Part shown: positions 22,191 to 24,388 of the stretch, piece by piece | Layout of the letters: the number at the start of each line of letters is the position of its first letter | Numbering within the stretch: the stretch's first letter is position 1 | From: Bacteroides eggerthii | Lineage (GTDB): Bacteria; Bacteroidota; Bacteroidia; Bacteroidales; Bacteroidaceae | NCBI RefSeq assembly: GCF_025146565.1 | Contig: NZ_CP102258.1 | Span: 1,458,001 to 1,522,000 of the forward strand | DNA: 64,000 nt | Reading direction: 5' to 3' | Translations under genes and position numbers: made by a program | The notes under the pieces: generated by a model | The model's database searches: none | The model's input: only the letters and a program-made list of their open reading frames with translations | Told to the model about the DNA's origin: nothing

Positions 22191-23648
22191 ATGAGTACAA
22201 TTTTGCAGTTGGCTCCACAAAATGTGTGGAAGCATTTCTATTCGCTGACTCAGATACCCCGTCCGTCTGGACATATGGAGCAAATAACTGAGTTTTTAAT
22301 AAGTTTCGGTAAGAGTTTAGGTTTGGAGTCATTTGTCGATGAGGTGGGCAATGTCATTATCCGTAAGCCTGCCACTCCGGGTATGGAAAACCGTAAAGGA
22401 GTTATTCTTCAGGCGCATATGGATATGGTGCCGCAGAAGAACAACGATACTGTTCACGACTTTACCAAAGATCCCATTGAAACATACATTGACGGTGATT
22501 GGGTAAAGGCCAAAGGCACTACGTTGGGTGCCGATAACGGCATGGGTGTGGCCGCCATTATGGCTGTACTTGAAGCAAAAGACCTGAAGCATGGTCCGCT
22601 GGAAGCATTGATTACTAAGGATGAGGAAACGGGTATGTATGGTGCATTCGGCTTGAAACCGGGTACACTGAAAGGCGAGATTTTGCTGAACCTCGATTCG
22701 GAAGACGAAGGAGAACTTTATATCGGTTGTGCAGGAGGAATTGATATCACAGCTACATTGGAATATAAAGAGGAAGAGCCCGCTGCCGATTTCGTGGCCC
22801 GTCAGATAATCTTGAAAGGCTTGCGCGGTGGACATTCCGGATTGGAGATCAATCAGGGACGAGGCAATGCCAATAAGTTGCTTGCCCGTATAGTGCATGA
22901 CTTGTTGATTGAATTCGATTGCCGTCTGTCGAGTTTTGAGGGCGGCAATATGCGTAATGCTATTCCGCGCGAGGCGCATGCTGTCTTGGTTTTCAATCCC
23001 GAAGATGTTGAAGGGTTGGAAGATTACATAAAGGAATATGAAGCATTGCTGAATACTGAGTATGCTCCAATTGAAGAAGGCATAACTTTGAAGTTGGAGA
23101 ATGTGGACTTGCCTGCTTTCATTGTTCCTGAAGAGATTCAGGATAATATGATTAGTGTGCTGATGGCTTGCCAGAACGGGGTGATGCGTATGATTCCTAC
23201 TGTTCCTGACACAGTGGAGACTTCTTCCAATCTGGCCATTGTAACGATTGGGGGCGGTAAAGCCGATGTCCGTATTCTCGCTCGCAGCTCTTGCGATACA
23301 ATGAAGGATTTCTTGGCAGACAGTTTGACGGCATGTTTCTCGATGGCAGGTATGAAAGTGGAACTGAGTGGCGCTTATTCTGGCTGGCAACCTAATGTCG
23401 ATTCTCCGATTTTGCATGCCATGACCTTGTCTTACAAGCAGCAATTTGGTGTAGAGCCGGCAGTGAAAGTGATCCATGCAGGTTTGGAGTGTGGCATTAT
23501 CGGTGCTAATTGTCCGGGACTCGATATGATTTCTTTCGGTCCTACATTGCGCTCACCACATTCACCGGATGAACGTGCATATATTCCTTCTGTTACAAAA
23601 TTCTACGATTTTCTGGTTGCAACACTGGAGCAGACTCCGGAAAAGTAA
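22191..23648 (+). CDS. pepD: Aminoacyl-histidine dipeptidase PepD (M20 family)
   Basis: A 485-residue cytosolic metallodipeptidase that hydrolyses Xaa-His dipeptides such as carnosine. Zinc-binding and catalytic blocks are visible: LQAHMDMVPQK, TTLGADNGMGVAAIMAVLE and the KDEETGMYGAFGL loop with the catalytic Glu. LRGGHSGLEINQGRGNA marks the dimerisation lid domain, and HAGLECGIIG and SFGPTLRSPHSPDE complete the C-terminal part. Length is normal. It is monocistronic, ended by a clear terminator 25 bp downstream. Confidence 0.95.
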   Translation: MSTILQLAPQNVWKHFYSLTQIPRPSGHMEQITEFLISFGKSLGLESFVDEVGNVIIRKPATPGMENRKGVILQAHMDMVPQKNNDTVHDFTKDPIETYIDGDWVKAKGTTLGADNGMGVAAIMAVLEAKDLKHGPLEALITKDEETGMYGAFGLKPGTLKGEILLNLDSEDEGELYIGCAGGIDITATLEYKEEEPAADFVARQIILKGLRGGHSGLEINQGRGNANKLLARIVHDLLIEFDCRLSSFEGGNMRNAIPREAHAVLVFNPEDVEGLEDYIKEYEALLNTEYAPIEEGITLKLENVDLPAFIVPEEIQDNMISVLMACQNGVMRMIPTVPDTVETSSNLAIVTIGGGKADVRILARSSCDTMKDFLADSLTACFSMAGMKVELSGAYSGWQPNVDSPILHAMTLSYKQQFGVEPAVKVIHAGLECGIIGANCPGLDMISFGPTLRSPHSPDERAYIPSVTKFYDFLVATLEQTPEK

Positions 23649-23779: not shown

Positions 23780-23811
23780 CTTTGAAGAAAATTGATTTAG
23801 GTCAATAAATA

Positions 23812-23889
23812 TGTTGTAAAACATAGTTTTCTATGTGAAATCACTTGTTATCTTGAACAAAGGCCTTATTTTTGTGTTGTAAAACATAG
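23812..23889 (+). promoter_or_regulatory. Paired 15-bp direct repeat flanking the peptide-cluster promoter
   Basis: TGTTGTAAAACATAG occurs identically at 23812-23826 and 23875-23889, 63 bp (about six turns) apart. One copy is upstream of the -33 box and the other lies immediately after the -7 box, over the expected start site. The upstream copy also forms a hairpin ACATAG-tttt-CTATGT. This layout resembles an operator pair used for looping repression. Confidence 0.6.
23844..23874 (+). promoter_or_regulatory. Promoter of the small-peptide cluster
   Basis: CTTG (23844-23847) and TATTTTTG (23867-23874) are separated by 19 bp, a textbook Bacteroides -33/-7 arrangement. Transcription is expected near 23881, about 70 nt before the first peptide start. 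Confidence 0.75.
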
Positions 23890-23950
23890 AAATAATAGGA
23901 TAACAGGTTATTTTTAAGAATAACAAGATTGATTTTAGGAGGATAACAAA

Positions 23951-24025
23951 ATGAAAAAGTTAAGAAAATTGTTCAGACATTTCGGCGAGGCCGATAAGAA
24001 CATTTGGGGTTATGTAATGCTTTAA
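23951..24025 (+). CDS. Small cationic peptide 1 (24 aa)
   Basis: ATG at 23951 is preceded by AGGAGG seven bases upstream, an unusually strong Shine-Dalgarno for Bacteroides. The product begins MKKLRKLFRHFGEADKN and ends GYVML. It has six Lys/Arg against two acidic residues, and the first eleven residues make a basic amphipathic helix. There is no cleavable signal peptide or Gly-Gly leader. It is the first of three tandem peptides between one promoter and one terminator. The family is unknown to me. An antimicrobial or membrane-active peptide, a toxin component or a regulator would each be speculation. Confidence 0.65.
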   Translation: MKKLRKLFRHFGEADKNIWGYVML

Positions 24026-24096
24026 GTATTCATCCCCTTTTTAAAGAGAGAATTTAGTTTTCAGTTTTCAAGGTGTTAGTTTAATTTTTTAAGGTT

Positions 24097-24189
24097 ATGA
24101 AAAAAAAGATTATGAGTTCATTCAGACGTATTCTCGCAGAGGTAGGTCGTAATGAGATGTTAATGATGGGATATACCATCAAAAAGTAA
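24097..24189 (+). CDS. Small cationic peptide 2 (30 aa)
   Basis: ATG AAA AAA AAG at 24097 to TAA at 24187-24189. The sequence starts MKKKIMSSFRRILAEVG and ends MMGYTIKK; it has eight basic and two acidic residues. Its N-terminal half aligns with peptide 3 (shared KK-I-x-SSFR and LA-x-VG), and it shares GY near its C-terminus with peptide 1. There is no Shine-Dalgarno; the leader is A/T-rich, typical for Bacteroides. Conservation of the frame against peptide 3, despite many nucleotide differences, supports real translation. Confidence 0.68.
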   Translation: MKKKIMSSFRRILAEVGRNEMLMMGYTIKK

Positions 24190-24230
24190 AGAAACAAAGT
24201 TTTCAGGGTATTAGTTTAATTTTTAAGATT

Positions 24231-24326
24231 ATGGGAAAAAAGATTGTAAGCTCTTTTAGAAACGTTCTTGCTAAAGTCGGCGAGAACTGGATTGAAGCAA
24301 TGAAGTATTATAACTACCCGAGATGA
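24231..24326 (+). CDS. Small cationic peptide 3 (31 aa)
   Basis: ATG GGA AAA AAG at 24231 to TGA at 24324-24326. It starts MGKKIVSSFRNVLAKVGEN, continues WIEAMKYY and ends NYPR, with six basic and four aromatic residues. It is a paralogue of peptide 2, with near-identical spacing of Phe9, Arg10, Leu13 and Gly17. A strong terminator starts 20 bp after its stop, closing the three-peptide unit. Confidence 0.68.
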   Translation: MGKKIVSSFRNVLAKVGENWIEAMKYYNYPR

Positions 24327-24345: not shown

Positions 24346-24388
24346 AGCGGGGGATATGTTCTGAGAATGTATCCCCCGCTTTTTTTTA
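24346..24388 (+). terminator. Rho-independent terminator of the peptide cluster
   Basis: AGCGGGGGATA (24346-24356) pairs perfectly with TATCCCCCGCT (24370-24380), followed by T8. Together with the promoter at 23844 it defines a transcript of about 500 nt. Confidence 0.92.

Follow-up and report, generated by a model that had tools for sequence, protein, structure and literature searches.

Introduction

In type I systems such as hok/sok and tisB/istR a small RNA blocks the translation of a tiny peptide, and the antitoxin RNA is usually, although not universally, encoded at the toxin locus. SroC and the ChbBC spacer are sRNA sponges, that is, RNAs with sites for one sRNA. The locus described here is like the type I systems in its tiny peptides and in the small-RNA block of translation that we propose, but differs from them in that the sRNA, BTnc060 (Rfam RF04184), is located at another locus and has other partners. 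A second locus, L072, also bears sites for one sRNA, as the sponges do; it differs from them in that 22 of the 30 loci have multiple sites and in that it seems, judging by its sequence, to form its own transcription unit.

A handful of Bacteroides sRNAs has been characterised so far, according to PMC10861873. GibS, MasB and BatR of B. thetaiotaomicron pair with the 5' region of their target mRNA and repress it (PMC7366714, PMC10994844, PMC10861873). Like BTnc060 as proposed below they are trans-encoded and pair at target 5' regions; unlike it, none of them is presented in the parts of these accounts available to us as having its own sponge, as sharing an operator or as pairing at three places on one polycistronic mRNA for micropeptides. 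Bacteroidia ribosomes are said to ignore Shine-Dalgarno sequences, and a Shine-Dalgarno control of bS21/rpsU has been described (PMC9976891); the present locus shares with that case, as presented there, a strong Shine-Dalgarno despite such ribosomes, the difference being that here it precedes the first micropeptide.

No published description of this micropeptide operon was found among titles and abstract beginnings on Bacteroides sRNAs, micropeptides and sponges, and no target, sponge or operator of BTnc060 was found in print, its very name being absent from the papers searched; most subscription journals lay outside both searches. Ryan et al. 2020 give 409 sORF candidates (PMC7366714), and an earlier listing of single ORFs, e.g. 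in supplements, is possible. In the present study we propose a new micropeptide family as a target of BTnc060 and, together with L072, a target set plus decoy for this very conserved sRNA, which could be tested in laboratory strains of gut commensals. We give a probability of roughly 0.7 to the reading that BTnc060 silences the translation of amphipathic micropeptides as part of an envelope circuit which a sponge buffers.

Results and Discussion

Architecture and occurrence of the operon

The window, by which we mean the whole 64-kb stretch of DNA analysed, contains three short ORFs in a row on the plus strand, exactly where the preliminary description had placed them: ORF 1 (peptide 1, type A, MKKLRKLFRHFGEADKNIWGYVML; 23951-24025, 24 aa), ORF 2 (peptide 2, type B, MKKKIMSSFRRILAEVGRNEMLMMGYTIKK; 24097-24189, 30 aa) and ORF 3 (peptide 3, type C, MGKKIVSSFRNVLAKVGENWIEAMKYYNYPR; 24231-24326, 31 aa). 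The dedicated promoter and terminator that had been claimed for them are also found in the sequence. The promoter (23845-23874, plus strand) is of the Bacteroides type, with a -33 TTG, a spacer N19 and a -7 TATTTTTG, for which we take the letters of the Bacteroides -7 box to be TAnnTTTG; an intrinsic terminator occupies positions 24346-24387 of the same strand. The -7/-33 promoter type of Bacteroides is named in PMC7366714. Upstream the operon has as neighbour an M20 dipeptidase gene (22191-23648, TIGR01893) and downstream an A2M-family gene, whose start was taken as 24779.

That the ORFs encode leader peptides attenuating this downstream macroglobulin-like gene is hardly credible. Short ORFs in long 5' UTRs of B. 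thetaiotaomicron do recall attenuation leader peptides (Ryan et al. 2020, PMC7366714), but here the operon has its own terminator after ORF 3, followed by about 390 nt before the next start codon, and none of the three ORFs contains a run of codons for a single amino acid, as read from the DNA alone.

Of the 99 genomes of the genus, 49 contain a match to peptide 1, as do 36 of the 64 good ones. DNA and profile searches gave 48 distinct operons after identical operons had been merged and L126, a false type C, had been dropped; some of these share a genome or belong to close relatives, and since the operons share descent they are not independent. Their make-up is AB (21), ABC (13), AC (6), BC (4), A (3) and B (1). 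Among the operons without peptide 1, the AGGAGG first-ORF leader now precedes peptide 2 in L018 and L028, and L035 seems to retain a short piece of ORF 1, both judged by eye. The type C profile gave convincing matches in 3 of 151 genomes of the family, all of them in the own genus, and 7 further matches among these genomes with E 0.067-0.097 were judged spurious. A codon pattern of type A found 32 stretches in the GTDB species genomes, 31 of them in Bacteroides, Mediterranea or Caecibacteroides; the one in Sphingopyxis was put down to chance.

The AGGAGG ribosome site ascribed earlier to peptide 1 is present at 23937-23942 (plus strand) as the Shine-Dalgarno of ORF 1. The same motif occurs in 41 of 43 peptide-1 leaders and 43 of 48 first-ORF leaders, and in 1 of 57 later-ORF leaders. 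It is also kept by most of the lineages in which the A leader no longer pairs with BTnc060. We consider this conservation a clue, because Bacteroidia ribosomes reportedly do not recognise Shine-Dalgarno sequences.

Coding capacity and properties of the micropeptides

The three micropeptide ORFs are real genes under purifying selection. Types A, B and C, with 39, 36 and 22 distinct coding sequences, have median pairwise dN/dS values of 0.165, 0.154 and 0.213 (428, 177 and 117 pairs, restricted to 0.05<pS<0.7), below 1 across relatives as the preliminary description had anticipated for coding frames, and pooled pN/pS values of 0.28, 0.40 and 0.34; the most variable positions are the third ones of the codons. 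The operons had been gathered via intact ORFs, so that intactness is partly built in, and for this reason the fair test of intactness is the search with the peptide-1 profile, which reads through stops: among the 54 matches listed from the 99 genus genomes there is no internal stop. Peptide 1 is frameshifted in one copy (L150, a B. rodentium draft), which may be an assembly fault and which was left out of dN/dS and of the charge and moment ranges. The check named at the outset as able to refute coding, a search for stops or frameshifts in relatives over a preserved RNA, came out in favour of coding, with L150 as the one frameshifted copy.

The net charges of peptides 1, 2 and 3 (K/R minus D/E) are +4, +6 and +4, within the range claimed before, and their hydrophobic moments exceed those of shuffles with p values of 0.002, 0.019 and 0.034. 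Peptides 2 and 3 resemble each other and so do their leaders, in agreement with a duplicated leader-plus-ORF unit. The C-terminal half, said to be rich in aromatic residues, is so in peptides 1 and 3 (W, Y), but not in peptide 2, which has one Y. A single-sequence AlphaFold2 model of peptide 3 consists of one helix, residues 3-27, with pLDDT 84.7 and pTM 0.41, and types A, B and C have the conserved C-terminal motifs WGYVML, MGYT and NWMEAM-YY, respectively. None of the three peptides matches a Pfam or NCBIfam family at E <= 1, in agreement with the preliminary description, which recognised no family, and none contains a GG pair, which together with neighbours that encode an M20 dipeptidase and a member of the A2M family bears out that this is not a double-glycine bacteriocin; neither neighbouring gene resembles the immunity or export gene whose absence had been remarked upon.

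The preliminary description proposed exported or membrane-active peptides with a signalling or antimicrobial role, a reading that the charges of +4 to +6, the moments above those of shuffles and the helix 3-27 of the peptide 3 model would suit. We find it decidedly unlikely: by eye no signal peptide or double-glycine leader is evident, neither neighbouring gene is a transporter, and the conserved C-terminal motifs suggest a specific partner.

Homologue of the small RNA BTnc060

In a BLAST search of the 701-nt region against its own genome the best place beyond the region itself was the antisense of an sRNA (E 7.2e-4), this blind match aligning the leader of ORF 2 with a spot 0.96 Mb away; the same part of the query has a match in at least 55 of the 99 genus genomes. 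The sRNA locus, L003, matches Rfam RF04184 (BTnc060) over model positions 1-213 with E 1.1e-29. Its 167.4 bits lie below the Rfam gathering score of 228.9, and we therefore name it a homologue of BTnc060, one which aligns over the full length of the model and whose core and 3' hairpin are all but identical to those of members above the cut-off. RF04184 has matches with E <= 0.01 in 91 of the 99 genus genomes, in 89 cases with E under 1e-10, and in 63 of the 64 good genomes; the gathering cut-off is reached in 13 of the 99. In an alignment of 31 sequences, the own copy and the 30 best-scoring ones, the core CGTTATCCTGAAAACAATC...TGAAAACTG, which comes after an internal TATATTTG-type promoter, is almost invariant and is followed by a hairpin and a T run. 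There seem to be two promoters at this locus (L003:1336-1480), an upstream one for the 213-nt Rfam form and the internal conserved one for a form of about 95 nt. We infer from the sequence that the short form is made, and for its first 62 nt no self-structure is predicted. Three other RNAs were rejected as the pairing RNA: MasB is BTnc201 (PMC10994844), BatR was BTnc167 (PMC10861873) and SnoA is antisense to the hcp promoter.

Complementarity between BTnc060 and the leaders

According to the computed pairing, the leader that was duplicated is complementary to the BTnc060 homologue. RNAduplex predicts three complementary sites on the plus strand: site 1 (23892-23948; 43 pairs, -31.6 kcal/mol) spans the Shine-Dalgarno of ORF 1, whereas site 2 (24060-24125; 49 pairs, -42.8) and site 3 (24197-24260; 46 pairs, -38.9) cover the leader and the first codons of ORFs 2 and 3. 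The duplexes at the latter two start at -37 and -34, respectively, leave the start codon mostly looped out and extend into the AAAAAGATT codons of the KKI motif that the two peptides share.

Compared with shuffled leaders, the leader-only energies for ORFs 1-3 have z values of -5.6, -4.7 and -4.3. Of 5328 72-nt segments of the 64-kb stretch, the four with the best energy all fall within the micropeptide operon, and the best energy with BTnc060 among the 42 other gene leaders is -17.5. Net of the opening cost, leaders 1-3 reach -11.1, -26.5 and -20.9, the values of sites 2 and 3 referring to the leader part, and the 42 controls have a mean of -2.0 and a best value of -9.7. Site 1 is marginal, because the opening cost brings its -11.1 near to the best control; in a cruder version of the net energy it has -8.8 against -8.4 for the best control. 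An A/T-rich composition as the cause of the pairing was ruled out by dinucleotide-preserving shuffles and the control leaders. A generic Bacteroides leader was rejected as well, TTTTCAGGTATTAGTTT with <=3 mismatches having 20+20 matches in the own genome vs 21+17 for the reversed control.

Among relatives, the leaders with z below -3 number 31 (of 43) for type A, 18 (of 39) for type B and 15 (of 23) for type C; z is not below -2 in 8, 17 and 6 leaders, respectively. The A leaders without clear pairing are those of L031, L032, L036, L038, L146, L189 and L191, with L023 borderline. A leaders that differ between clades often match another part of the sRNA, GTTTTCAATAGG in one group and TTTTTTAAGG in another, which argues for pairing and against common descent alone. 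The conserved complementarity over the ribosome-binding regions exceeds what composition gives; in some lineages it is weak or has disappeared, and at site 1 it is marginal.

Searched against the own genome, a leader model from A leaders (R2) ranks the antisense sRNA spot second (E 0.0012) and one from B/C leaders (R1) ranks it fourth (E 0.28); as these leaders had been picked by a pairing energy < -25, the matches are no independent proof. When all A leaders (33 distinct) were used on 272 kb of own-genome DNA, the sRNA spot was the best match outside the operon, at no better than E 0.08, and when all B/C leaders of later ORFs (55 distinct) were used it was absent among the best ten matches in the same 272 kb, all ten being in the operon.

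As a further, weak control we took the 1200 nt after pepD in 21 genomes without a peptide-1 match, all 21 having pepD. Recognisable B/C-like peptides occur in 2 of them, L246, with its best site (-30.2) directly before the peptide ORF, and L242, with its best site (-31.8) at the end of pepD, far upstream of the ORFs. L244 (-29.5) and L240 (-27.1) have a site and no recognised peptide, and in the remaining 17 genomes the best energies range from -17.5 to -25.6. This spread indicates that BTnc060 sites accompany the peptides mostly, not strictly.

Further RNAs complementary to BTnc060

A second apparent mRNA partner, L004:1540-2039 (G000:C1:39731-40081), encodes a secreted 117-aa Spy/CpxP-like protein, the CpxP-type and Metal_resist matches of which are sub-threshold; relatives are present in 69 of the 99 genus genomes. 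In all 30 Spy-like loci the leader is complementary to nearly the entire BTnc060 core, with z < -3 (range -4.2 to -9.7) and a mean of -41.8, the pairing being located mostly at about -70 to -18. These loci, and those of the sponge, were the best-scoring ones fetched rather than a random draw.

The other partner, L072:1330-1625 (G000:C1:2515543-2515838), comprises some 250 nt whose ends resemble a promoter and a terminator, and has no Rfam match at E <= 0.1. Of the 99 genomes, 63 contain a DNA match at E <= 0.01 and 32 one at E <= 1e-10, some of the weak matches being the antisense of BTnc060 itself. The 30 aligned loci share no ORF (longest ATG ORF 0-48 aa), and z is below -3 in 29 of them; the anti-BTnc060 blocks are largely retained and indels fall mostly between blocks, as seen by eye in 20 of the 30. 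L072 is thus probably, from these sequence features, a sponge of BTnc060.

The existence of L072 bears on whether the micropeptide transcript might itself be mainly a decoy, its three leaders titrating BTnc060 and the peptides being secondary. One RNA carrying three long sites would serve such a purpose, but the peptides are under purifying selection and a separate RNA without a shared ORF already suits the decoy role, which makes this explanation very unlikely.

A type I toxin-antitoxin-like module, in which the peptides would be self-toxic at the membrane and BTnc060 their trans-acting RNA antitoxin, is an unlikely alternative. The short cationic amphipathic peptides, their tandem duplication, the varied operon make-up and the possibility of RNA silencing at every ribosome-binding site are all features that it would explain. 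Against it, the sRNA gene lies elsewhere, about 0.96 Mb away in this genome, rather than at the same locus as is usual for an antitoxin; BTnc060 has other conserved partners and is found in 91 of 99 genomes vs 49 of 99 for peptide 1; and the peptides are amphipathic, without an evident hydrophobic membrane span.

A shared operator

The palindrome ATGTTnTAAnACAT is found at the promoters of the peptide operon, BTnc060, the Spy-like gene and the sponge. In the peptide operon it occurs twice, with a spacing of 63 bp and no strand assigned: operator 1, ATGTTGTAAAACAT (23811-23824), is a putative factor site without mismatch to the consensus, and operator 2, GTGTTGTAAAACAT (23874-23887), has one mismatch and lies over the predicted transcription start. 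When <=1 mismatch is allowed, 46 of 47 operons have the palindrome, as operator 1 or 2, ahead of their first ORF, and all 30 distinct BTnc060 loci have it upstream at a constant distance. Under the same tolerance it is present in 26 of the 27 Spy-like promoters, out of 30 loci, that yielded an anchor motif. A looser pattern finds it in 16 of 29 sponge loci, the upstream regions scored there including misaligned windows; L072 of the own genome has no good ATGTTnTAAnACAT operator. Outside the operon the 64-kb window contains one more match, with one mismatch. Such sharing points to a co-regulon.

Just upstream of operator 1 there is an FNR-box-like palindrome, TTGATTTAGGTCAA (23792-23805, no strand assigned), for comparison with the FNR box, given as TTGATnnnnATCAA (PMC1274295). 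Operator 1 was located in 45 of the 48 operons, and in 44 of these a TTGA...TCAA box occupies this place; the box is also present in all 27 Spy-like promoters with the anchor motif. Counted by hand, the distance from the operator centre to the probable start downstream is about 50-60 bp for BTnc060, for the sponge and for operator 1, while operator 2 lies over the start and the Spy-like operator between the promoter boxes. Our guess is that the putative ATGTTnTAAnACAT factor activates the RNAs and represses the mRNAs. As to an operator known from the literature, TGTTATAAAACA was met in three papers, the titles of which all concern Streptococcus pneumoniae.

Proposed mechanism

In the silencing mechanism that we favour, the single-stranded 5' part of BTnc060 would pair with all three ORFs at their ribosome-binding regions, at ORFs 2 and 3 crossing the start-codon region into the first codons, and initiation would consequently be blocked at all three. 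The leader-plus-ORF unit would have been duplicated along with its sRNA site. L072, with near-full-length anti-BTnc060 blocks, would act as a sponge, upon which the peptides would be released. The putative ATGTTnTAAnACAT factor may link the sRNA, the sponge, the peptide operon and the Spy/CpxP-like secreted protein in one circuit, and an FNR-like factor may act at the two mRNA promoters, those of the peptide operon and the Spy-like gene. The peptides are most likely cationic amphipathic helices on the inner face of the membrane, forming part of an envelope response; we infer this action at the membrane surface because of their amphipathicity, the helix modelled for peptide 3 and the Spy-like partner. 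More tentatively, and as a possibility on which we would not rely, the system may be a genus-wide RNA circuit in which a near-invariant sRNA and several long-duplex partners, namely the tandem micropeptide mRNA bound at each start site, the envelope mRNA of the Spy-like gene and the sponge, are all wired to one palindrome-reading factor, peptide 1 with its strict AGGAGG maybe being made chiefly by altered ribosomes, e.g. those without bS21.

Two other stretches show complementarity to BTnc060. The leader of a lipoprotein-like ORF in L070 (minus strand) contains AGTTTTCAATAGGTATTA, with 18 exact letters complementary to BTnc060 and a duplex of -36.0, and is a possible further target. In L071:1490-1570, GGTAAAAAGATTG stands directly before a terminator-like hairpin, perhaps in a 3' UTR, and forms a predicted duplex of -43.0 with the core; this element is a possible 3' UTR sponge.
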